From NCBI RefSeq assembly GCF_002224245.2, contig NZ_NKHK02000002.1, positions 1 through 64,000 of the forward strand: a stretch of 64,000 bases of DNA. Direction: 5' to 3'. Position numbers and translations under genes: made by a program. Source of the DNA: Moraxella sp. VT-16-12 (GTDB lineage Bacteria > Pseudomonadota > Gammaproteobacteria > Pseudomonadales > Moraxellaceae). Below the pieces are notes generated by a model, which worked only from the letters and a program-made list of their open reading frames with translations, was not told the origin of the DNA and searched no databases. This document shows, one piece after another, positions 3,446 to 51,615 of the stretch. How positions within the stretch are numbered: position 1 is the stretch's first letter; each line of letters begins with the position of its first letter.

Positions 3446-4591
3446 TTAGTGTTGTTGCTTTTTGCTTAAAAAATCCATGACCAATGTTTTTTCTTTAAGT
3501 GAATCGCTTGGTGATTGAGCGGTCGTCTTAAAAGCTGGTTGAGTAGATGCATAACTATTGATGTTTTTTGGTGGTGCAGTCTCTTGCAGTGGCACCACAG
3601 GCGAAGAGATGGGCTTTTCTTCTATCGTCAATCCTGTGGCAATGATGGTAACATGAATCTCATCACCCATACTCTCATCATCAACAAAACCATAAAAGAT
3701 GTTGGCATTTTCCAAATCCACAATCGGAGCAACCGCCTCAGCGATTTCATTAGGTTCGGTCATCATCAGATTAGATGAAACAACATTCACCAAAAGACCT
3801 TGGGCATTTTCAAGACGCAAATCTTCCAATAATGGTGAACGAATGGCAAGCTCTGTCGCCTTAGTTGCACGCCCTTCACCACTAGCACGTCCCACTCCCA
3901 TCATAGCATGACCCTTGGCAGTCATGGCAGTGCAAATATCCTTAAAGTCAGTATTAATATAACCTGCCGTAACAATGGTTTGCACCAAGCCATTCACCGC
4001 ATGAAGTAGCACATCGTCTGCTTTTTTTAGCCCTTCTTTAAAAGGCAACTCACCATAAATCTCTGGCAATTTATGATTTGGAATGACAATGATGGAATCC
4101 ACATATTCAGACAACACTTCAACGCCCGCCTTGGCAACCTCGGCACGTTTGCGTGCTTCATGAGCAAAAGGCGTGGTAACCACTGCTACCGTTAAAATCC
4201 CCATTTCCTTAGCAACACGAGCCACCACAGGAGCAGCTCCTGTACCTGTACCACCACCCATGCCAGCAGTGATAAAAGCCATATTATGACCTTCTAAAAT
4301 CGCTCTAATTTGCTCCTCATCACTTTCAGCAGCTTGTTTGCCAACTTTTGGGTCACTACCTGCTCCCAAGCCATTAGTGATTTGTGCACCAAGCAAAAGG
4401 GTTTTTGGGACATTTAAGCGATTGAGTGCTTGACTGTCAGTATTGGCACAAACAAAGGTAACATTAGATACCCCCTGCTCCACCATATGCTGAACAGCAT
4501 TACCACCACCACCACCCAGACCAAAGACAATAAAACGTGCCCCATTATTAACAACAATTGGCTCATCTTCTGAAAAGGTATATTTTGACAT
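3446..4591 (-). CDS. ftsZ: Cell division protein FtsZ
   Basis: FtsZ is the tubulin-like GTPase that forms the division ring at midcell. GLGGGGGNAVQHM is the nucleotide-binding N-terminus, and GGGTGTGAAPVVA is the tubulin signature loop. I chose the ATG at 4591 (MSKYTFSEDE, 381 residues) because GAGGG lies about 7 nt upstream. An ATG at 4618 would add nine residues but has no ribosome-binding site. A low-complexity linker leads to the C-terminal tail VMDFLSKKQQH, a rather diverged version of the conserved peptide that binds FtsA and ZipA. It is last in the murG-murC-ddl-ftsQ-ftsA-ftsZ cluster, with no lpxC following. Confidence 0.97.
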   Translation of the reverse strand: MSKYTFSEDEPIVVNNGARFIVFGLGGGGGNAVQHMVEQGVSNVTFVCANTDSQALNRLNVPKTLLLGAQITNGLGAGSDPKVGKQAAESDEEQIRAILEGHNMAFITAGMGGGTGTGAAPVVARVAKEMGILTVAVVTTPFAHEARKRAEVAKAGVEVLSEYVDSIIVIPNHKLPEIYGELPFKEGLKKADDVLLHAVNGLVQTIVTAGYINTDFKDICTAMTAKGHAMMGVGRASGEGRATKATELAIRSPLLEDLRLENAQGLLVNVVSSNLMMTEPNEIAEAVAPIVDLENANIFYGFVDDESMGDEIHVTIIATGLTIEEKPISSPVVPLQETAPPKNINSYASTQPAFKTTAQSPSDSLKEKTLVMDFLSKKQQH

Positions 4592-4645: not shown

Positions 4646-5977
4646 CTACATCCATTTTTTAAGAAAATTGGTAGCCTGCTCATACGCTTCCCCCAATCGC
4701 CCAAAAAAACCTTGGTTTGATTGTGTTTGTGGATATAAAAATTGCTCGTCCTGCTCGTACTGTTTACTTTGTTGGTACAACAATACCCCAATGGCATTAT
4801 ATAAGGTATTATCCGCCAAATGCTTGTTTATCATTCTAATATTATCATCATTTAAATCATTTACACAAACGCTGACACAATTATTTACACTTATTTGTCT
4901 TACAGCGACATTAAAACGTTTTTGTACCATACGATTCAAATCGTTCATTTTTGAGCCACCGCCCGCCAATACGATGCCATCTTTGAAAAACTCTGTCATG
5001 CCCTCTTGGTCAAGCGTATCAAAAATTCTTGAAAATAAAGCAAAATATCTATCTTCTATGATGCTCGCCAATTCATAGCGATTTAGGACGATTTCACCTT
5101 GTTTATTATTTCTTTGCAGGGTAATAAAACGGTCTTTGGGTACGGCTGATGAATAGGCAAAGCCCTCCTCTTTTTTGATGGATTCTGCCTCTGCCATGGA
5201 GATATTAAGCCAATTGGCAATATCTTTATCAACCGCACTTCCTGCCATGCCAAAACATCGACTAAATATCAACATGTTATTTGAATAAACACAAACATTA
5301 GTTACGCCTGCCCCAATATCCACAAAACAAATACCTCGCTCCTTTTCTGCGTGAGTTAGGGCGTATTCCGCCCCCGCCACACCAGCAAAGACAGGCGGAT
5401 AAATCGCCAAGTTACTTTGAGCAAACACGCCATCCATCTGCTGATAATAAGTTCTTGGCATGGCAATCAAATGATAATTAAGATGTAGATGATGGGCGTA
5501 TAAACCCACAGGGTTTTTTGTGGCACGTTCGGTAGGTCTGCCAATATCCAAGGTGGCAAATTGTGTGATGATTTGTATGGGACTGGCTCTGTTTAATAGC
5601 AAGTCATTTTTTAATTTTTCAAGCATACCTGCAATATCATCAAGACGAACAGGCTTACCTACGGCATTTGGCACATCACCAACCAAATTGATTCGGCTGT
5701 GTGCATTGTCTGTTTGCATATTAGGGGTGGCAAAGGACAAACCGACATGGGTAAACTCCACACCTGCCATGTCCATCGCTTGATTGGTAGAGATTTTGAT
5801 GGCATTTAATAAGTCATGGTGATTGACGATTTGACCGCCAAAAAACCCTTGTGTCTTAGCAATACCCACTGCCATGATTTTTAGGTGCTTACCATAATTA
5901 TCGGGGTAGCCCACAACCGTATAAACCGCTGTGGAACTTAAATGTATTACTGCACGAATTTGTAAATTTTGTTTCAT
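4646..5977 (-). CDS. ftsA: Cell division protein FtsA (diverged nucleotide pocket)
   Basis: FtsA is the actin-like protein that tethers FtsZ to the membrane. Identity is supported by position between ftsQ and ftsZ, length (443 residues), the phosphate-2 motif DIGAGVTNVCVY, the adenosine motif GIVLAGGGSKM, and a C-terminal amphipathic helix (FGRLGEAYEQATNFLKKWM) that would be the membrane anchor. The phosphate-1 motif near the N-terminus, normally IDIGTxK, reads VIHLSSTAV (His12, Ser14, Ala17), so the usual Asp, Gly and Lys are all changed. The start is uncertain: ATG at 5977 or an in-frame GTG at 5989, neither with a strong ribosome-binding site. Confidence 0.92.
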   Translation of the reverse strand: MKQNLQIRAVIHLSSTAVYTVVGYPDNYGKHLKIMAVGIAKTQGFFGGQIVNHHDLLNAIKISTNQAMDMAGVEFTHVGLSFATPNMQTDNAHSRINLVGDVPNAVGKPVRLDDIAGMLEKLKNDLLLNRASPIQIITQFATLDIGRPTERATKNPVGLYAHHLHLNYHLIAMPRTYYQQMDGVFAQSNLAIYPPVFAGVAGAEYALTHAEKERGICFVDIGAGVTNVCVYSNNMLIFSRCFGMAGSAVDKDIANWLNISMAEAESIKKEEGFAYSSAVPKDRFITLQRNNKQGEIVLNRYELASIIEDRYFALFSRIFDTLDQEGMTEFFKDGIVLAGGGSKMNDLNRMVQKRFNVAVRQISVNNCVSVCVNDLNDDNIRMINKHLADNTLYNAIGVLLYQQSKQYEQDEQFLYPQTQSNQGFFGRLGEAYEQATNFLKKWM

Positions 5978-41124: not shown

Positions 41125-44100
41125 TCAAAACTGCATGGTCAGTGCCAATGTACCGCTTTGACTGTCATAGTTTTTACGCCATTGACCTTGATAACCCAAG
41201 GACAACTTGGCTTTTGGTGTCAGCTGATAGCCAACGCCCACACCAGCAACACCAAAGTGTTTGCCCACTTCATGTCCTGTGGTGCTAAAGCCAACGTTAC
41301 TGCTGACAAAGCTAGCTTGTGCCCGACTGCGTTTGTCGCCATTTTCAAAACCGCCAGCAAGGGTGGCATTAAGATTGAGCTTACCAATGGTGTAATTGGC
41401 TTTGACACCAAGCGTGCTTGTTAGGCTTTCGTAGGTATTTTTATTGACTGCCAAATTATATACCCCTGCTCCTTTTTCTTGGTAAGCATCTGAGCTGACT
41501 TTGGTATAGTCAATACCCACAAACGGCGTAAGATTGCGTTGTGATGAACCAATTTGATGGCTTATGCCCAAACCTGCCTGAGCAATTTTGGCTTGATATT
41601 GAGCGGTCGCTGTGGTTTTTGCCAATAGGCTGATATGACGCTTACCATCCACATCACTACGCCCCACGCCAACATGCCCATAAAGCTCTGTTCCTTGGGC
41701 AGCTTGGTGTTTGGCATACAACAAGGCTTGGGTAGTTTTGGTTTCTACCTGATGGTTGGTAGCACCTTTACTATCAATATCGCCCTGCAAATGTGATACC
41801 GCCACACCAACACTGGTCTCACCCACAGCACCTTGCACGCCAACCACAGCACCCACATGGGTATCATTATAAGCTGACAAACCTGTTGTGCTGGCTTTGT
41901 GTTTACCATCATTGCCAATGGCACTTGCCCAAACTTGATGGGTGCTGGTCAATGGTTGAGCGTTAATGGCTTGCACTGCATAAGCACTGCTGTCTGCTAT
42001 CACACGGTTGGTAGCACCTTCTAGCAAGGGTTGTAGCTGACTTGCTGCCTGCGAGATTTGTGCTTGCGATAAGCCGTCTAGTCCCAAGCTAAGTGCCAAA
42101 GCAAGCTTTTTGTTTTGCTCGTTGGGGCTTTCAATGGTCTTATCTAAAGCCTGTGCCAAAGACAATGCAGAGATGTTGTTATGTTTTTGCACAGCTTTTG
42201 TAAATACGCTGGTTGGCTGTTTTTGTTCAGGCTGTTTTTGTTCAGGCTGTTTTTGTTCAGGCTGTTTTTGTTCAGGCTGTTTTTGTTCAGGCTGTTTTGG
42301 AGCTCCAACTTTCAAATCAATCGCATTACCATGATAATCCAAATGCAACAAATCAGTACCGTTTCTGATAGGCTTGTCCTCTTTACCCACCACAGAAAAC
42401 TCTTTAAATTGACCCACCAACCCTTCGGCTTTAACAATATCTTTCCAGACAGTATTGGCATTTTGATTGGCATCTTTGGCATCTGATGCTAGCTGCTGTA
42501 CAACACTAGAAGCCTTGATTTTTATTGTACCCTTTGTAACATTTAGCTTGCCTGTACTTTCTAATTTACCATATTTATCTTTATTTTCTACGGCAATCGC
42601 CAATATCTCATCTTTGGCAAACTCATAATCGCCAAGCAGTTTAAGCGTACCTTCATTGATGTGTGTTTGTCCTGTGTAGCCCTTACTTGCTACATTTAAG
42701 GTCAAAGTGCCTGCACCCTGCTTAATCAAGCTACCAGTACCAATCAATCTAGCACCATTAACGATAGTGGCATTATGGTTTTGGGTGTCAAAAATTGCAT
42801 TACCTCCAAGCTCAATTTGGCTTTTACTTTTATCTGTAAAGCCATCAAACAGCTCACCTTGGTTTTCGGTAAGTTGTACCGTACCATCAACAATAGAGAC
42901 TGATGATGCTTGGGCGGCGGTATCGCGTTTAATATTCGCCACTTTGACTGTGGCAGTATTTACCACCAATTTACCCGAGCCTTTGTTGCCCACCACCAAA
43001 TCGCCGGTAGTATAGACGCCTTTTTTATTGATGTTTAGCTCACCAGTGCTATCTTTTTCTTTACCCAAAATGGTATTCTTCTCGGTCTCAGCGGTTGCCT
43101 GCGTTATTTGTGCCTTACCCACACCAATATTGCCAATAACAATGTCTTTTTTTGCTAAAACACTTGCACCATCTTTGACTTCAAGTGTGCCATTACCAGA
43201 GCTTTGAGATATTCCACTATCATCAACATTATCAGGTAGCCAGCCCCCAATTTGTATCTCACCACCAACATTGATGGCAGAACGCTCACCTGACACTGCC
43301 ACTTTGGCACCACCAGTGTTACCAATGCCAAGAACATTGTTAATGCTTACATTACTGCCTTTATTGACAATCAGCTCATCGCTAACAGAATCTCGCTTTT
43401 GAATGGGGCTAACACCAGAAAACAGATATAAATTTTCTCCAACAATGGTTGAAGCGTTGGTGGCTGTTAATTTTGCTTTGCCATAATGCCCAAGAATGAT
43501 TGTTCCTGTTGCGTTAATCGTGCTATTATCAATCAGTGCATCTGCTATGGCTTCTTGACCAACCCCCAAACGAAAGGACTTGGCATTTATTTGGCTGTTA
43601 TTAGTGTTAAGCTTGCCTGTACCAGCTTGACTAACGACTAAATCGTCAGTCTCATAAACACCATTTTTGATGTTTAATGTTCCCATGCTAGCCTGAGTCT
43701 CAGCAATGATGGTGTTTCTTTTTACTTTAACTTTTGCCCCATCTACTGTCACTTGACCTTTGTTAAGATTACCAATAACAACGTCCTTTTCTACCAAAAC
43801 GTTTGCCTTGCTCTTAACTTCAAGTGTGCCATCACCATACTGCTGCGGCTTATCCGTAACATCAATATTAGCAGGTAACCAACCACCAATTTGTATGTCG
43901 TTTGTCTTGATGGTAGTATTTTCGCCTGCAATCTCTAATCTACCTTTACCAGTACTACCAACAGCAAGCGTATTTTTGACAGTTACGTTACTGCCATTTT
44001 GAATAATCAGCTCACCACTCACAGATTCTTGTTCTTGTTTGATGCCAAGACTGGATGATACAAATAAATTACCATCAACATTCAGTTTGGATTGGTTATC

Positions 44101-44799
44101 TGCGGTGAATTTAGTCTTGCCAGCAGCTCCCAAGGTCAACAATCCAGTATTGACAGTAGCCTTATCAAGTGTAATATCTACCTTAGAGTCTTTACCAAAT
44201 CCTGAAATAACCGCCTCAGTATCCAACTGACTGTTTGTTACTTTTAATGTGGCTTCTCCAAAAGTACCCACCTTTAAATCTTTGGTGGTAAACTTGGCAT
44301 TATTGGCTAGTGTCAGCTCGCCTTTACTGCCTTTTTCTTTGGCAATATTTGTATTGCCAGTTGTTTTAACAGTACCATTATCTACGGTCAGCTCACCTGC
44401 ACCCACACTACCAATATTTATAGACTCAGTTTCAAGCACGCCATTAGTATGAATGTTGATTTTACCACCATTTTGCACTTTGACATCTTTGGTGTTGGTA
44501 ACTTTACCATGATTATAAATGGTTAATGGTTGGTTATCCACAGTTAAAGTGTTGGTTGGCAAAACTGTACCTTGGGTCAAAACCTCTGTTGGTGCAGTTA
44601 CTTGATAATCCCCCCTATTTTTATACTGAATACCGCCACCAAACACCTCGTTAGCCAATGCCTGCCCAGAAACAGCGACCGCCGCCGCCAACACCACAGT
44701 TTTTAGGGTTTTACTTTTACCTTTGGCTTTGGCAATCTCTGAAACACACTGCCACACCCCCAAACTATGATTAAAAATCACACGATACGCTCGATTCAT
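41125..44799 (-). CDS. Classical (type Va) autotransporter adhesin-like protein
   Basis: A 1224-residue secreted protein. It begins with an extended signal peptide (NRAYRVIFNHSLGVWQCVSE, then a Lys-rich stretch and the hydrophobic core VVLAAAVAVSGQALA). The passenger is a beta-helix built of Gly/Asn/Thr-rich rungs, with two related modules each ending near QIGGWLPxN and GTLEVK. A PEPQK-type linker with five PEQKQ repeats follows, then an autotransporter linker and a C-terminal beta barrel of about 260 residues ending in LALTMQF. The barrel would place the passenger on the cell surface. No protease triad or other catalytic motif is evident, so adhesion or aggregation is the likelier role. Confidence 0.93.
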   Translation of the reverse strand: MNRAYRVIFNHSLGVWQCVSEIAKAKGKSKTLKTVVLAAAVAVSGQALANEVFGGGIQYKNRGDYQVTAPTEVLTQGTVLPTNTLTVDNQPLTIYNHGKVTNTKDVKVQNGGKINIHTNGVLETESINIGSVGAGELTVDNGTVKTTGNTNIAKEKGSKGELTLANNAKFTTKDLKVGTFGEATLKVTNSQLDTEAVISGFGKDSKVDITLDKATVNTGLLTLGAAGKTKFTADNQSKLNVDGNLFVSSSLGIKQEQESVSGELIIQNGSNVTVKNTLAVGSTGKGRLEIAGENTTIKTNDIQIGGWLPANIDVTDKPQQYGDGTLEVKSKANVLVEKDVVIGNLNKGQVTVDGAKVKVKRNTIIAETQASMGTLNIKNGVYETDDLVVSQAGTGKLNTNNSQINAKSFRLGVGQEAIADALIDNSTINATGTIILGHYGKAKLTATNASTIVGENLYLFSGVSPIQKRDSVSDELIVNKGSNVSINNVLGIGNTGGAKVAVSGERSAINVGGEIQIGGWLPDNVDDSGISQSSGNGTLEVKDGASVLAKKDIVIGNIGVGKAQITQATAETEKNTILGKEKDSTGELNINKKGVYTTGDLVVGNKGSGKLVVNTATVKVANIKRDTAAQASSVSIVDGTVQLTENQGELFDGFTDKSKSQIELGGNAIFDTQNHNATIVNGARLIGTGSLIKQGAGTLTLNVASKGYTGQTHINEGTLKLLGDYEFAKDEILAIAVENKDKYGKLESTGKLNVTKGTIKIKASSVVQQLASDAKDANQNANTVWKDIVKAEGLVGQFKEFSVVGKEDKPIRNGTDLLHLDYHGNAIDLKVGAPKQPEQKQPEQKQPEQKQPEQKQPEQKQPTSVFTKAVQKHNNISALSLAQALDKTIESPNEQNKKLALALSLGLDGLSQAQISQAASQLQPLLEGATNRVIADSSAYAVQAINAQPLTSTHQVWASAIGNDGKHKASTTGLSAYNDTHVGAVVGVQGAVGETSVGVAVSHLQGDIDSKGATNHQVETKTTQALLYAKHQAAQGTELYGHVGVGRSDVDGKRHISLLAKTTATAQYQAKIAQAGLGISHQIGSSQRNLTPFVGIDYTKVSSDAYQEKGAGVYNLAVNKNTYESLTSTLGVKANYTIGKLNLNATLAGGFENGDKRSRAQASFVSSNVGFSTTGHEVGKHFGVAGVGVGYQLTPKAKLSLGYQGQWRKNYDSQSGTLALTMQF
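42215..42298 (-). repeat. Tandem 15-bp repeat (five full copies) in the autotransporter gene
   Basis: GGCTGTTTTTGTTCA repeats exactly five times (42215-42289), with a sixth partial copy to 42298. It encodes PEQKQ on the minus strand. The unit is a multiple of three, so copy-number change keeps the frame and only alters linker length. Confidence 0.95.
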
Positions 44800-45143
44800 A
44801 AGAAATACCCATAACCTAAATGAAAAAAATTTATCAAAACACCTTTTTGGTGTTATTACTTAGACTGGGCAACTTAAAAAATCTTTCACCAATTTTCTAA
44901 TAAAATCACGATTTTTTTACAAAAAAACACTTGTACTTTTTTATAAATAAATAAAATATTGATTTATATAGTATTTTTTATATCATCTAAGAAAAAAAGA
45001 TGATGAAATAACTTATTTTTATAAAAATAAATCAATCATAAAACTATGTTATCAATAAATCCTAATATCAGACACATCAAAACAACCCATCAAAAAGATG
45101 GTGGTGCGTTTTAGATGATGGGATAATTTTGATATGACATATA
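44800..45143. other. AT-rich intergenic region upstream of the autotransporter
   Basis: This stretch has no coding potential I can support. It holds the autotransporter promoter (minus strand), several 7-nt A or T runs, and a long very AT-rich segment that could bind H-NS-like proteins. I see no clear operator or second promoter. Confidence 0.4.
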
Positions 45144-45180
45144 AAAAAATGACACACCCATGATGAGTATGTCATTTTTT
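45144..45180 (-). terminator. Rho-independent terminator after tkt
   Basis: AAAAAATGACA and TGTCATTTTTT form a perfect 11-bp stem around a 15-nt loop; both strands carry T-runs. It lies 29 nt past the tkt stop. Confidence 0.85.
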
Positions 45181-45208
45181 ATCTTAAACCATTGCTTGGC
45201 TGTGGCGA

Positions 45209-47209
45209 TTAAATCAGCGATTGCACCGCTTCTACCACCGCTTCACTGGTAATCCCAAAATGTTTAAACAGCTCTTTGGCAGGGGCAGACTCACCAAAGC
45301 TGGTCATACCAATCACTTTGCCGTCAAGCCCCACAAACTTATACCAATAATCGGTGATGCCCGCCTCTACCGCCACTCTGGCACGCACGGCATTTGGCAA
45401 AACACTCTCTACATAATCTTTGTCCTGATTGACAAAAATTTCAGCACAAGGCATAGACACCACACGCACGCCCACACCTTGCTCACTCAAACTGTGATAA
45501 GCATTCATGGCAAGTTCCACCTCTGAACCTGTGGCGATGATGATGGCTTGTAGCTCGCCCTGTTCTTTTGCCAAAATATAGCCGCCTTTTTCAATCAAGG
45601 CGATTTGTTCATCACTGCGAGCCTGATGGGGCAAGTTTTGACGAGATAAAATGAGTGAAGTTGGGGCATGGGCAGTCAAAAGTGCGGATTTGTACGCCAC
45701 GGCTGTCTCTACCGTATCGCAAGGTCGCCATGTGAAGTGATTGGGCGTTTGTCTTAGACTGGCGATTTGCTCCACAGGCTGATGGGTGGGACCATCTTCG
45801 CCTAGACCAATGCTGTCATGGGTATAGATATTAATCACTCGCTGCTTCATCAGTGCCGACATACGCACGGCGTTACGAGCATATTCCATAAACATCAAAA
45901 AGGTGGCAGTAAAGGGAATAAATCCACCATGCAACGCCACCCCATTGGCAATGGCGGTCATGGCAAACTCACGCACGCCATAATGCACATAGTTACCATC
46001 GGCGTGGGATTGTACACCCTTGGCATCTTTCCAAAGGGTCAAATTTGAGCCTGCCAAATCGGCACTACCACCCAAAATCTCGGGCAAAGCAGGGGCAAGG
46101 GCATTTAGGGCGTTTTGGCTTGCCTTACGGGTGGCAATGCTCTCACCTTTGGTGTGGCACAAAGCGATAAATTCGTCCGCTTTGGTGATAAAATCACTTG
46201 GCAACTCGCCACTTAGACGGCGTTGTAGCTCAGCAGCTTCGTCAGGATATTTTGCCTGATAATCAGCAAATTGGGCATTCCATTTATCTTCTTTGGCTTG
46301 TCCTGCTACTTTGGCATTCCACGCCTGATAAATCTCATCGCTGATGGCAAATGGCTCGCTATTTTCCCAGCCAAGCATATCTCGTGCCAAGGCAATCTCA
46401 TCCACGCCCAAAGGCGCACCGTGGCAGTCTTCTTTGCCTTGCTTATTAGGACTACCTAGTCCAATCACTGTTTTACAGATAATCAAAGTAGGCTTAGTGG
46501 TCTCAGCTTTGGCGGATAGGGTAGCAGTGCGGATTTGCTCGCTGTCATGTCCATCTACGTTTAATACTTGCCAACCATAAGCCTCAAAGCGTTTGGCGGT
46601 GTCATCGCTAAACCACCCTTCCACTTCCCCATCAATAGAAATGCCATTGTCATCATAATAAACAATGAGCTTGCCCAATCCAAGCGTGCCAGCAAGCGAA
46701 CAGGCTTCGTGGCTGATGCCCTCCATCAAACAGCCATCGCCCAAAAAGCAGTAGGTATGATGGTCAATGATGGCATTGTTGGCTTTGTTAAACTGAGCAG
46801 CAAGGGTTTTTTCGGCTAGGGCAAAGCCGACTGCATTGGCAATCCCTTGTCCCAAAGGCCCTGTGGTGGTCTCAATGCCATCAGCATAGCCATACTCGGG
46901 GTGTCCTGCGGTTTTTGAGTGCAACTGACGAAAATTTTTGATGTCATTAAGGGTCAAATCATAACCACTTAAATGCAACAAGGCATAAAGTAGCATAGAA
47001 CCATGACCGTTAGATAATACAAAACGGTCGCGGTTTGCCCAGTTGGCATTATTTGGATTATGGTTTAAAAACTCTCGCCACAGCACATCGGCAATGTCCG
47101 CCATACCCATTGGAGCACCGGGGTGTCCTGAGTTGGCTTTTTGGACAGCGTCCATGGCAAGAATACGAATGGCGTTGGCAGTGTGGCGTTGGTTTAGGGG
47201 GGTTGGCAT
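45209..47209 (-). CDS. tkt: Transketolase
   Basis: Transketolase moves two-carbon units in the pentose phosphate pathway using thiamine diphosphate. The 666-residue protein shows [19 protein letters not shown], the ThDP motif [20 protein letters not shown], the pyrimidine-domain [15 protein letters not shown], and the C-terminal [14 protein letters not shown]. The ATG at 47209 ([13 protein letters not shown]) follows AGGA. A TTG start at 47236 is less likely. Length is normal. Confidence 0.97.
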
Positions 47210-47326
47210 TGGGCTAATCCTAACAGGCTTAAACAAATGAAGAATTATAACATAAATGGTGTTTTTTATCTAAAAATACCAATGACTAATTTATATTCTC
47301 TTTTTGTCATTAAGCTAAAAAATCCC

Positions 47327-47355
47327 TTGATTTTACATTTTTTGTAAAATATAAT
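47327..47355 (+). promoter_or_regulatory. Promoter of the HTH-OLD operon
   Basis: TTGATT (47327-47332) and a perfect TATAAT (47350-47355) are separated by 17 bp, a standard sigma-70 arrangement. Predicted start of transcription is near 47362, about 38 nt before the first ATG. A 17-bp dyad lies in the spacer and its mirror copy lies at the start site. Confidence 0.8.
47330..47350. promoter_or_regulatory. Operator-like dyad O1 between -35 and -10
   Basis: ATTTTACA and TGTAAAAT form perfect 8-bp arms around a 5-nt T spacer. The core is TTTACA-N5-TGTAAA. A bound repressor here would block RNA polymerase. Confidence 0.75.
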
Positions 47356-47362
47356 ACCCAAG

Positions 47363-47379
47363 TTTACAAAAAATGTAAA
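47363..47379. promoter_or_regulatory. Operator-like dyad O2 at the transcription start
   Basis: TTTACA-AAAAA-TGTAAA is a perfect dyad and the exact reverse complement of the O1 core. The centres are 31 bp apart, about three helical turns, so proteins on the two sites would face the same side of the DNA. Confidence 0.75.
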
Positions 47380-47399
47380 TAAATTTAAAAAGGTATTAC

Positions 47400-47849
47400 A
47401 TGATTAAAGACCGACTAAAAGAGATAGAGCTTAAAATTACTGAGCTGTCCGATTATTTTCAAGTTTCCCGCCCCACAATGTATAAATTTATTGATGCTTA
47501 TGATAATGGAGAATATCTCATCATTCATCAGCCTATTTTAGATCTATTTAGATACATTGATAGCGATTCTCTTATTGGTAAAAAATCAGCCATTGCTTTT
47601 ATTATTCAAAACACCGTAGAAAATAAAAGTTTAGACACTCAATCAATGTTAAAAAATAATGATAACTCTATTAAAAATCAATTTATTGAACTGATTTTAA
47701 CAAAATCAGACTTTGATGATATGGTTGAATACGCATTAAAAATATATCCTTTAATCAACAAAAGACAATTATCTGATGTAGAAATTAATCTTTTAAAACC
47801 TTATGATAACATACAATTACTGATGAAACTTAATACGGGAGACAAATAG
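47400..47849 (+). CDS. Small HTH protein, candidate autoregulator of the OLD operon
   Basis: A 149-residue protein. Residues 13-33 (ITELSDYFQVSRPTMYKFID) look like a helix-turn-helix, with VSRPTMYKF as recognition helix. The rest is helical and polar, with no known domain that I recognise. An AAGG site precedes the ATG. Its stop overlaps the GTG start of the OLD gene by 1 nt. Two identical dyads in the promoter just upstream are the likely binding sites. It could also be a structural subunit of the nuclease complex. Confidence 0.78.
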   Translation: MIKDRLKEIELKITELSDYFQVSRPTMYKFIDAYDNGEYLIIHQPILDLFRYIDSDSLIGKKSAIAFIIQNTVENKSLDTQSMLKNNDNSIKNQFIELILTKSDFDDMVEYALKIYPLINKRQLSDVEINLLKPYDNIQLLMKLNTGDK

Positions 47850-49501
47850 TGGAACGTTCACTTAGAATTGAGCATTTTAGAAACATTGGTTTTAAAAATC
47901 AGCCAAACAAACCCACTTATGAGAGATTGGTGCTAAATCATTCTTTACACAAAGGCGAGCTAGGTGATTTGGTAATCTTAATTGGTGCAAATAACTCAGG
48001 AAAATCTAATATATTAGATGCACTCAATATCATCGCTAATGGCAACATTGCTGAACATGATATCACTGATTTATATATGGAAGATGAATACAGAAACCCA
48101 AAAATATCCTTATTTTGTCGCAGAGATGAAGATAAAAAAGATTATCTATCTTGTAAAAAATCATTAAAAAATAAGATAGAATTTTTGCTACCCAGTGATA
48201 ATAGTGAAACCATAAAAACATTAAAACAATACAACCTAAATCACGAAATTAGTATTACGCCATCATTTAAAGGTTTAAATCATATATTGCAGAAAAATTT
48301 TGGTACTAATTTTATGTCTAGAATTATTACTTATAAACAAAAAAGTATCTGCAATAAAGACCTAATTTCAAATCATCAAGACATTCAAAAAAATAGTTTT
48401 CTTTTATCCATTTTAAAATCTATTAATGTTAATATATCAACCATCCATAAGTCTTATGAAGTGTTTAATAAGAGAAACCTTATCGGTATATTAGAACAAG
48501 AAAGCGACAGAATTAATGAAAAATTAGTGACCATTTCAAATAAGTTTAATCAGCTTTATTATACAAAAGATGCAAATTATTCTTTTAAAATATCCTTGCA
48601 TGCAGATAAAATATATTTTTCCTTATTTAAAGGGAAAAATTCTCTCTTATTAGACTCTCAGTCAGTTGGTTTTAAATGGTTTTTTGACCTGTTTTTTAAC
48701 CTTTTATGCTCAAATGATATTCAGGCTGGCGACATCATTATTATGGACGAACCTGCCACTAATCTACACATTAAAGGGCAAAGAGAGCTAAGAAAATTTT
48801 TAAAAGAATTCGCTGTGCATAATGATGTTACCATTGTCATGGCAACACACTCACCATTTTTGATTGACTTAGATTTTCTTGATGAGTTAAGGGTGATTAA
48901 GAACGATGACAATATCACCTACATTGAAAATAACTTTTCGGCAGTTAACAGTACAGACTCAGATTCATTACTTGCTGTTAAAGAAGCTCTTACCATTGAA
49001 AATCACATCATCATTAACCCCAATCAAAAACTTGTTTTTGTAGAAGGCATTACAGACTATAACTACTTGACAGCGTTTAAACATTTATTAGGCAAATCAG
49101 AGTTTACTTTTTTACCCATCAATGGTGTTGGGGATAGTAACGAAGAATCCAAAAGAGCTGTCAGCAAAAAACTGCTCAGCATTCGCAAAGATGCTATATT
49201 GTTGGTTGATGGCGATACCGCAGGTAAAGTGATGAAAAAAATCAATGAAAATTCTGATTTAACTGTTATTACTTTATCCGATATGGGTAAAGAATTTGTT
49301 GGAAAAGAGATTGAACATGTATTTAGTGATGATGACTTAACTGCATTTAGATTGGTTGATAAAGATGGTAACTTTAACAAATACGCATCCACATCTGCTG
49401 TATTTAAAAATAAAATCATCTACGGCAAACAAAAGGTTTCTGATGAAACATTAAATAATTTTAAAAGATTATTTGATACACTAGAAAGGGCATTAAATTA
49501 A
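47849..49501 (+). CDS. OLD-family ATPase/TOPRIM endonuclease
   Basis: A 550-residue protein in one polypeptide. The ATPase has Walker A GANNSGKS (residues 46-53), Walker B IIIMDEPATNLH (Asp300-Glu301) and switch His334 in ATHSPFL. The C-terminal TOPRIM domain has VFVEGITDYNYL (Glu399) and LLVDGDTAG (Asp454, Asp456). This is the layout of OLD nucleases, the family of P2 Old and GajA. No UvrD-like helicase gene follows, so it is not a Gabija system; it looks like a class 1 OLD with an HTH partner. It starts with GTG, overlapping the upstream stop. The cassette is AT-rich between tkt and serS. Confidence 0.9.
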   Translation: MERSLRIEHFRNIGFKNQPNKPTYERLVLNHSLHKGELGDLVILIGANNSGKSNILDALNIIANGNIAEHDITDLYMEDEYRNPKISLFCRRDEDKKDYLSCKKSLKNKIEFLLPSDNSETIKTLKQYNLNHEISITPSFKGLNHILQKNFGTNFMSRIITYKQKSICNKDLISNHQDIQKNSFLLSILKSINVNISTIHKSYEVFNKRNLIGILEQESDRINEKLVTISNKFNQLYYTKDANYSFKISLHADKIYFSLFKGKNSLLLDSQSVGFKWFFDLFFNLLCSNDIQAGDIIIMDEPATNLHIKGQRELRKFLKEFAVHNDVTIVMATHSPFLIDLDFLDELRVIKNDDNITYIENNFSAVNSTDSDSLLAVKEALTIENHIIINPNQKLVFVEGITDYNYLTAFKHLLGKSEFTFLPINGVGDSNEESKRAVSKKLLSIRKDAILLVDGDTAGKVMKKINENSDLTVITLSDMGKEFVGKEIEHVFSDDDLTAFRLVDKDGNFNKYASTSAVFKNKIIYGKQKVSDETLNNFKRLFDTLERALN

Positions 49502-49509
49502 ACATCAAT

Positions 49510-49540
49510 CAAAATGCCGTCTTTGAAAACGGCATTTTTT
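49510..49540. terminator. Bidirectional terminator between the OLD gene and serS
   Basis: AAAATGCCGT and ACGGCATTTT form a perfect stem around a short A/T loop, with T-runs on both strands. It serves the convergent OLD and serS transcripts. Confidence 0.88.
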
Positions 49541-49552
49541 AATCAATAGAAT

Positions 49553-50824
<1,272 letters not shown>

Positions 50825-50949
50825 TTACCTAACCATCTAAAATTCTAAAATTGGCTAATAATAGCAAATTTGACGTAAAATTTCAGCTTTTTGGGTTTAT
50901 TTTTTGCAAAGTTTTGGGTAAGATAGGCATTTTTACCTAAGACATCATC

Positions 50950-51615
50950 ATGAGCCAAAAACCAAAACAAGCCCTATATCCCTACACGCTACAACCTGTC
51001 GCCTTAGACATGAGTGATGCTGAGTTTCGCAACGCTCAGCTTGCTCTGTTTGAAAAATCAGTACAAGCAGTCAGTCTTAAATCAGTCCGAACCAAAGAAT
51101 GGATAATTCTTGGCATCACGGTTGCTCTTGCGGTGTTGGGGCTGATTTTTGTCAATGGGTACTCCACCATTATTTTTTGGATAATGCTGGTGGGTGTGGT
51201 AATTTATCTGTTATTACGCACTTTGGGCATGCAATGGTACATGAGACGAGAGTTTGACAAACAAGTCAGCGAGATTAACATTCCTGATGAAATGTATGCC
51301 CTAAAACTGGGTGTGCAAAAACACGGTCTTATCATGACCATACCGGCCAAAAGCGACATTTTGCAAAACCCACAAATGCGTGGCATGACCATGCGTTCTG
51401 CCCCCACACAGCAAGGGGTGCTAAATTGGTCGGCAGTAACACAATGGGATGAGACGGATGATTTTGTGTTTATCATGTTTGAAATGCAAGGTCAAAAAGG
51501 CAGTCAAATCATTCCAAAACGCCTAAATAACAAAGGTCTACCCATCAACACCATCATCAAACATTTACAAGAAATCACCCCCAAAGGACTCAAAACCGAC
51601 GGCATGATGACATGA
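50950..51615 (+). CDS. Two-helix membrane protein of unknown function (YcxB-like)
   Basis: A 221-residue protein with two adjacent membrane helices (WIILGITVALAVLGLIFVNG and IIFWIMLVGVVIYLLLRTLG, roughly residues 46-95). They follow a cytoplasmic N-terminus, and a beta-rich soluble domain comes after (GLIMTIPAKSD, LNWSAVTQWDETDDFVFI). The layout recalls YcxB-type proteins, but the match is weak. Divergent from serS, with no partner gene. Confidence 0.7.
   Translation: MSQKPKQALYPYTLQPVALDMSDAEFRNAQLALFEKSVQAVSLKSVRTKEWIILGITVALAVLGLIFVNGYSTIIFWIMLVGVVIYLLLRTLGMQWYMRREFDKQVSEINIPDEMYALKLGVQKHGLIMTIPAKSDILQNPQMRGMTMRSAPTQQGVLNWSAVTQWDETDDFVFIMFEMQGQKGSQIIPKRLNNKGLPINTIIKHLQEITPKGLKTDGMMT

Follow-up and report, generated by a model that had tools for sequence, protein, structure and literature searches.

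A two-gene cassette behind paired dyads

The first 64,000 nucleotides of contig NZ_NKHK02000002.1 of Moraxella sp. VT-16-12 (RefSeq assembly GCF_002224245.2), hereafter the window, contain a cassette of two overlapping genes, which encode a helix-turn-helix (HTH) protein and an OLD-family protein with ATPase and TOPRIM domains. The genes follow a promoter marked by two copies of the dyad TTTACA-N5-TGTAAA. The features of the locus are as follows.

47327..47355, plus strand: sigma-70-type promoter TTGATT-17-TATAAT (TTGATT at 47327-47332, TATAAT at 47350-47355), by consensus match only
47332..47348, no strand assigned: predicted operator dyad 1, TTTACA-N5-TGTAAA, TTTACATTTTTTGTAAA, inside the -35/-10 spacer
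47363..47379, no strand assigned: predicted operator dyad 2, TTTACAAAAAATGTAAA, at about +2 to +18, assuming a transcription start near 47362
47400..47849, plus strand: gene for the HTH protein, 149 aa, ATG start, predicted autorepressor
47849..49501, plus strand: gene for the OLD-family ATPase/TOPRIM protein, 550 aa, GTG start, sharing 1 bp with the HTH stop
49511..49538, reported on the minus strand: terminator-like stem between the OLD gene and serS

An initial annotation of this DNA had listed the promoter, the dyads and the overlapping genes, and each was recovered as described: the promoter agrees with the consensus at 10/12 positions, the dyads are exact reverse complements of each other with starts 31 bp apart, and the Walker and TOPRIM motifs of the OLD gene are intact. 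Promoter-like sites number 21 in the window against 13.9 in shuffles, so that the promoter alone is weak evidence; the transcription start near 47362 was placed from the position of the -10 element. Zero-mismatch copies of the dyad occur twice in the window against 0.01 expected, at least two being reached by 0/100 shuffles, and the whole genome of 2,154,924 bases has only these two copies, both in the cassette promoter. When up to two mismatches were allowed, the window held 9 dyads against 8.1 expected, which is chance level. The mirror-image appearance of the pair results from opposite orientation of the A-tract in a near-palindrome. A divergent minus-strand promoter over dyad 2 (TTTACA-17-TATTAT) was considered and put down to chance. 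Terminator-like stems were found twice in the window against 0.8 in shuffles.

The OLD protein matched the Pfam families AAA_15 (57.8 bits) and AAA_21 (57.0 bits), both above the cut-off. Walker A, the DE of Walker B and the TOPRIM residues E399, D454 and D456 (E/DxD) were kept in 20/20 aligned OLD members. Foldseek with the structure model (predicted local distance difference test, pLDDT, 85.3) returned TsOLD (6p74) as the first match by E-value (8.9e-14) with a low TM-score of 0.33-0.35, and a profile search also ranked 6p74 first (E 1.2e-13). The best PADLOC models were AriA (top), Old and AbiLi, with modest scores. From its sequence, OLD is a probable DNA-cutting protein.

The HTH protein consists of an N-terminal HTH (about residues 1-60) and a helical C-terminal part. 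Its structure model (pLDDT 84.2) is confident in the N-terminal HTH, with a poor linking stretch at 74-88, and its PDB matches are weak and confined to about residues 1-59. It has no hydrophobic segment, the largest 19-residue Kyte-Doolittle mean being 0.56. Relatives are 28-56% identical to the window protein, and a stretch S-R-P-T-x-Y-K is almost invariant among them.

Full-length HTH proteins adjoin OLD genes

Used as a single query, the HTH protein found only the window itself in 96 related genomes, the other same-genus genomes giving no match; the 72,556 plasmid records, the 50,697 phage records and the viral contigs searched yielded none, and a class-level search gave three partial, weak matches (E 0.005-0.01). 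Single-sequence OLD scans of viral contigs and genome contigs returned nothing. We reached the OLD family by aligning the OLD protein of the window with a piece of H. pylori type and scanning genome contigs, which gave 25 loci, while the same two-sequence alignment found nothing in viral contigs. An HTH gene lies directly upstream of OLD in 18/25. The other seven comprise four archaeal loci (L028, L032, L033 and L034, of which L033 is cut by a contig end), L036 of Brachyspira hampsonii, which has a long OLD frame and no HTH match anywhere in its genome, L021, where OLD is cut short, and L040, at a contig end, whose genome carries an HTH gene and an OLD start on another contig (L076). The HTH profile gave nothing convincing in the OLD-only loci L015, L016, L021, L028, L032, L033, L034 and L036. 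Two of these (L015 and L016, Helicobacter phage records PQ159905.1 and PQ159898.1) show OLD amid apparently chromosomal genes, annotated MinD/mrp, KASIII and PlsX, whose frames are broken. OLD relatives on Enterobacter and E. albertii plasmids (L005 2096-4595, L006 2099-4595) were not counted as cassettes of this kind; the partner that precedes OLD there is an unrelated protein of 160-161 aa without an HTH-profile match, its C-terminal end hydrophobic by eye, so that these loci show OLD in a further two-gene arrangement.

To avoid a bias towards OLD, we also searched with the HTH alignment, leaving OLD out of the query (HTH-first). Matches were found in 20/119 genomes of Helicobacteraceae, the family of the Helicobacter locus, in 3/297 of the order of the clostridial locus, in 24/102 of Methanomethylophilaceae and in 1/398 of the phylum of the window, namely its own; scans of a few further places gave none. 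The loci examined were 20 from Helicobacteraceae, 3 clostridial and 25 from Methanomethylophilaceae, and two of the Helicobacter loci (L075 and L084) are L025 and L041 of the OLD scan.

In these HTH-first loci a full-length HTH gene stands beside OLD sequence in 25/26, a pairing that the initial annotation had proposed to check in homologues; two of the 25 (L094 and L095) have OLD reduced to a remnant of about 38 residues, and the exception, L099, has a full-length HTH gene without any OLD. HTH-domain-only stretches adjoin OLD-like sequence in just 2/22 (L101, whose HTH is a stop-containing remnant, and L118, where the match is a weak one to an ABC ATPase). This contrast, which keeps every row, gives a Fisher p of 2.7e-10, which is only indicative because related genomes are not independent; a stricter cut-off gave 24/26 versus 1/22. 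In L094 and L095 the HTH gene and its dyads are kept, and beyond the OLD remnant lies a large gene for a repeat protein, on the opposite strand.

The C-terminal part of the HTH protein thus tracks OLD, which suggests that it may contact OLD or respond to a signal shared with it. Type II toxin-antitoxin loci have a small gene upstream, reading frames that overlap and palindromes for autoregulation, and all three recur here. The C-terminal part could therefore bind OLD and keep the nuclease inactive, besides the protein repressing its promoter, so that loss of the HTH protein would free the nuclease. Its tracking of OLD speaks for such an arrangement, as do the TOPRIM_OLD toxins with antitoxins described for AbiL-type pairs in passages of PMC10440598. 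However, OLD genes occur without the HTH gene (L036 and the archaeal loci), which argues against an obligatory antitoxin, and the HTH gene persists without a working OLD in L099, L094 and L095. We consider an antitoxin role unlikely on balance, though the strongest of the competing explanations.

HTH-domain-only proteins mostly adjoin other genes, many of them still with a dyad. In Methanomethylophilaceae an SbcD-type nuclease gene, assigned by motif, lies beside 8/18 HTH-domain-only loci, and the neighbour in L118 matched Pfam SbcD_C. Such pairs, many with the same dyad, would fit an HTH protein that controls an ATPase-nuclease of repair type, in response to DNA damage or at a particular stage of the cell cycle, comparable to archaeal Cran1, a class 5 OLD that is reported not to act in defence (PMC12796447). 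Against such genome maintenance, the patchy spread across phyla and the presence of one copy on a viral-classed contig (L042, below) fit mobile defence better than a core function, and we rate it as somewhat less probable still than the antitoxin role.

Twelve archaeal loci (L078, L079, L114, L115, L117, L118, L120-L122, L124, L126 and L128) encode HTH-domain-only proteins with a different C-terminal part and adjoin SbcD/Mre11-type genes, recognised by motif or eye with one Pfam-checked; 10 of the 12 have an upstream TTTACA-N5-TGTAAA dyad. Two clostridial loci (L104 1474-2884 on the reverse complement of the locus, and L105 1483-2744) pair an HTH protein of 108-113 aa with a protein of 306-363 aa, downstream of a perfect TTTACAGAAAGTGTAAA dyad. 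This partner has a hydrophobic stretch and, at the cut-offs used, had no match in Pfam or PADLOC.

Conservation of the dyads and promoter geometry

Retention of the dyads by homologues, also raised by the initial annotation, was seen across phyla. Within 250 bp upstream of 19 HTH cassettes (window included), which were collected via OLD and not via the operator, we counted 35 dyads with at most one mismatch against 0.15 expected, and one in the remaining 248,947 bp of the same loci. At least one such dyad is present in 18/19 cassettes, L026 having a two-mismatch site only. Among the HTH-first loci, a dyad lies within 400 bp upstream in 18/20 from Helicobacteraceae, 3/3 clostridial and 17/25 from Methanomethylophilaceae, amounting to 28, 4 and 20 sites (0.20, 0.03 and 0.03 expected), with 2, 0 and 0 dyads in the rest of these loci. 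When we searched with the operator first, the 119 Helicobacteraceae genomes gave 3 matches, all HTH-bearing, and the backward control pattern gave 0; the query, an exact pattern of two sites, passes over most of the 20 genomes in the family that carry the HTH gene. The Helicobacter locus L100, found in this way, has its dyad pair farther upstream. Operator-first searching of viral contigs gave 5 loci, with the HTH gene in none; the sites of L130 and L132 are repeats inside an open frame, and L129 and L133 seem to be the same sequence.

A survey of 87 sites (45 distinct) in 56/66 loci, one of which is counted twice (L041/L084), found A or T in all 261 cells at centre positions 8-10, which the search pattern leaves unconstrained. 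As judged from these sites, the likely operator is almost unchanged from Bacteria to Archaea. The archaeal locus L034, which has an OLD gene without the HTH gene and no HTH match in its genome, has one perfect TTTACAAAAAATGTAAA just upstream (4873-4889).

The twin mirror-image layout stressed by the initial annotation is present in the window and is not conserved beyond it. Successive sites are spaced 22-24 bp apart in 25/31 cases, the 31-bp spacing occurring once, in the window only, and the A-tract orientation of the last two sites is mixed across the 27 loci with at least two sites (TA 10, AA 8, TT 8, AT 1). What recurs in relatives is the coincidence of the promoter-proximal dyad with the -35 element. 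In 20 non-window loci this dyad opens with TTTACA or TTGACA in 19 (TTGACA in 13; the exception is L030), and a -10 match of at least 4/6 follows 16-18 bp past it in 20/20, with a mean of 4.85 against 3.07 at 140 control spacings. The overlap with -35 is partly built in because the dyad pattern contains TTTACA; the change to TTGACA and the -10 match are not.

In the window the sites instead lie around the -10 element and the start, spanning about -30 to +18 with centres at about -22 and +10, an arrangement suited to occlusion rather than activation. That the sites move freely relative to the promoter fits steric repression. We also considered that the HTH protein is an activator or dual regulator at the dyads, given that the upstream dyad is centred near -50 in many relatives, a possible activator position if the promoter positions are correctly placed. 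The promoter-proximal site, however, covers -35 itself, and the shift of the sites seen in the window would hardly be tolerable for activation. This makes activation very improbable. With full-length HTH genes adjoining OLD and the dyads kept across phyla, repression of the operon by its own HTH protein, acting at the dyads, is very probable, and comparison strongly supports this proposal of the initial annotation.

Genomic setting and horizontal spread

The cassette sits between the genes for transketolase and SerS, and its G+C content is 28.7% against 42.3% for the window. A SerS match was found in 20/22 same-genus genomes, that of the window included. No OLD match was present within the fetched flank of serS in 19/19 other same-genus loci. 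A transketolase match lies beyond serS in 13 of these, with a gap between the matches of 82-347 bp in nine and of 440-1134 bp, with other open frames, in four; one of the latter, L058, has a 37-residue piece of transketolase only. The remaining six have no transketolase match within reach of serS. In the genus as a whole, OLD gave weak partial matches in 3/21 other genomes (E 4e-9 to 1e-4). Because 19 same-genus serS loci lack the cassette and their flanks vary, the cassette is, on this comparison, an addition at a variable spot. In L058 part of the serS 3' end is present again (3981-4232) past an insert that follows serS, as if something had integrated. In the window, a 1224-aa autotransporter-like protein with T5SS/PEP-CTERM repeats (41125-44799) adjoins transketolase.

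Related cassettes occur in Treponema, Clostridia, Bacilli, Helicobacter, Brachyspira and Methanomethylophilaceae archaea, so that regulator, likely target and effector are found together in Spirochaetota, Bacillota, Campylobacterota, Mycoplasmatota and one archaeal family in addition to the group of the window. The nearest kin of the window cassette is from Treponema (56% identity). The OLD tree joins the window and this Treponema sequence as a pair with support of 98/96, and in the HTH tree the two lie near each other with weak support. A 47.6-kb contig classed as viral (L042 1996-4291) carries an HTH-OLD cassette with a perfect dyad, beside a gene matching PDC-S31, a candidate defence family. 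The Treponema pairing, the viral-classed copy, the single positive among 398 genomes of its own phylum and the absence from the 19 same-genus serS loci fit a cassette that moves horizontally. Viral HTH matches numbered 13, and 12 of them (L043-L054) are phage proteins of 63-69 aa without OLD beside them, 10/12 having no dyad and L049 and L051 one dyad far upstream. We treated these short proteins as distant rather than as kin of the cassette.

Comparison with described OLD classes and defence regulators

OLD classes 1-5 are told apart largely by the genes that accompany them: OLD stands alone, lies next to a UvrD helicase or a reverse transcriptase, is divided into two genes, or adjoins a gene for a membrane protein (as described in PMC10568477 and PMC12796447). 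The cassette shares with P2 Old, TsOLD, Gabija GajA, retron OLD, PARIS AriAB and Cran1 an ABC ATPase followed by TOPRIM with the catalytic residues kept, and differs from these classes, as those sources describe them, by a dedicated upstream HTH gene with its own operator. It is not a single gene without partner (class 1), as the HTH gene overlaps OLD. Its neighbours are the HTH gene, transketolase and serS rather than a UvrD-like helicase as in Gabija (class 2), and none of 10 nearby window proteins matched GajB at E 1e-10. These 10 proteins include no reverse transcriptase of the retron type (class 3), and 45000-51000 has no Rfam match, which leaves room for an undescribed non-coding RNA. 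ATPase and TOPRIM lie in a single 550-aa open reading frame rather than being split as in PARIS (class 4), even though AriA is the best PADLOC model, and the partner is an HTH protein without a hydrophobic segment rather than the predicted membrane protein of the Cran1 operon (class 5). Judged by sequence, the cassette has the features of the OLD family and fits none of the five contexts. At least 11 uncharacterised OLD clades are reported in PMC12796447, and that of the cassette may be one of them (U1-U11 of Dataset EV1 of the Cran1 study).

The closest parallel in regulation is RptR, described in passages of PMC12255303 as the autorepressor of a type I restriction/DarTG2 defence island with its own conserved palindromes. 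Both have a small regulator gene first in the operon, self-repression (predicted for the cassette) and a regulator conserved across species with palindromic sites in its own promoter, a pattern that the homologues of the cassette show. According to the same passages, RptR is a single-domain protein with a 6-bp TAGCTA site that controls restriction systems in Gammaproteobacteria, whereas the cassette, known here from sequence alone, has a two-part protein, a 17-bp site, OLD genes and a range covering Bacteria and Archaea. C proteins of type II restriction systems and CapH of CBASS, named in that source, are likewise regulators of defence systems. AbiL and other AAA/TOPRIM_OLD toxin-antitoxin pairs, as outlined in passages of PMC10440598, are also two-gene units with a TOPRIM_OLD nuclease, but their antitoxin is a separate AAA ATPase, whereas the cassette fuses ATPase and TOPRIM and has an HTH partner.

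An OLD gene with this HTH partner or operator was not described in the titles, abstract openings and passages of the open-access literature searched, and the passages of PMC10440598, PMC12839542, PMC12904381, PMC13261556 and PMC8987985 contain no OLD-HTH pair. Together with the libraries searched, this agrees with the statement of the initial annotation that no named system has this gene pair.

A putative self-regulated module

We favour the explanation that the cassette is a horizontally moving two-gene unit of an HTH autorepressor and an OLD nuclease, released by a trigger against an invader or the infected cell, and we hold it to be reasonably probable. In such a unit the HTH protein would bind the TTTACA-N5-TGTAAA sites and occlude its own promoter, two or three sites would give sensitive control, and the 1-bp overlap would couple translation of HTH and OLD. 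A trigger would remove or titrate the repressor so that OLD is made, and OLD would then attack nucleic acid of the invader or of the infected cell. For other OLD systems, a response to phages inhibiting RecBCD is reported (PMC12904381). Comparison among the loci supports the gene pairing, the operator and promoter geometry, the intact catalytic motifs and the horizontal spread; DNA binding by the window HTH protein, repression rather than activation, nuclease activity, the defence role and the trigger are what we infer.

Several observations weigh against this explanation. OLD genes without the HTH gene exist (L036, archaea and H. pylori-type), which sits poorly with the suggestion of the initial annotation that a dangerous nuclease would be kept low until a trigger appears. 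The ten neighbouring window proteins gave no specific defence match, a LolD-type ABC protein among them matching an ABC-ATPase model, and the context is one of housekeeping genes. Placement of the homologues in defence islands, which the initial annotation had proposed to check, did not emerge as a general feature from the few relatives sampled. Among ten hand-picked neighbouring proteins from seven other loci, L025 has ZorB2 and a type II restriction endonuclease as neighbours, L029 has Fic and a UvrD-type helicase, and L042 has the PDC-S31 match; those tested from L017, L027, L104 and L105 gave no defence match. A defence role of the cassette is plausible and unproven.

A broader possibility, which we put forward tentatively, is that one HTH domain and its TTTACA-(A/T core)-TGTAAA operator form a transferable repressor-operator unit of Bacteria and Archaea, placed ahead of differing effectors (OLD nucleases, SbcD-type nucleases and a predicted membrane protein), with the C-terminal part swapped to match. 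The OLD form would both repress and couple physically to its effector, and would be an unrecognised OLD class.

How defence nucleases are silenced and switched on is largely open; for RptR, passages of PMC12255303 state that how phage infection lifts the repressor is still to be settled. As regulator, likely target and effector travel together across phyla, a single protein and a single oligonucleotide are enough to test the target straight away. The operator can also be used to look for further systems, a use to which the SbcD and membrane-protein pairs point. Taken together, the data point to a widespread self-regulated module, possibly anti-virus, outside the OLD classes checked, which would add a regulated class to a family now sorted largely by partner genes.

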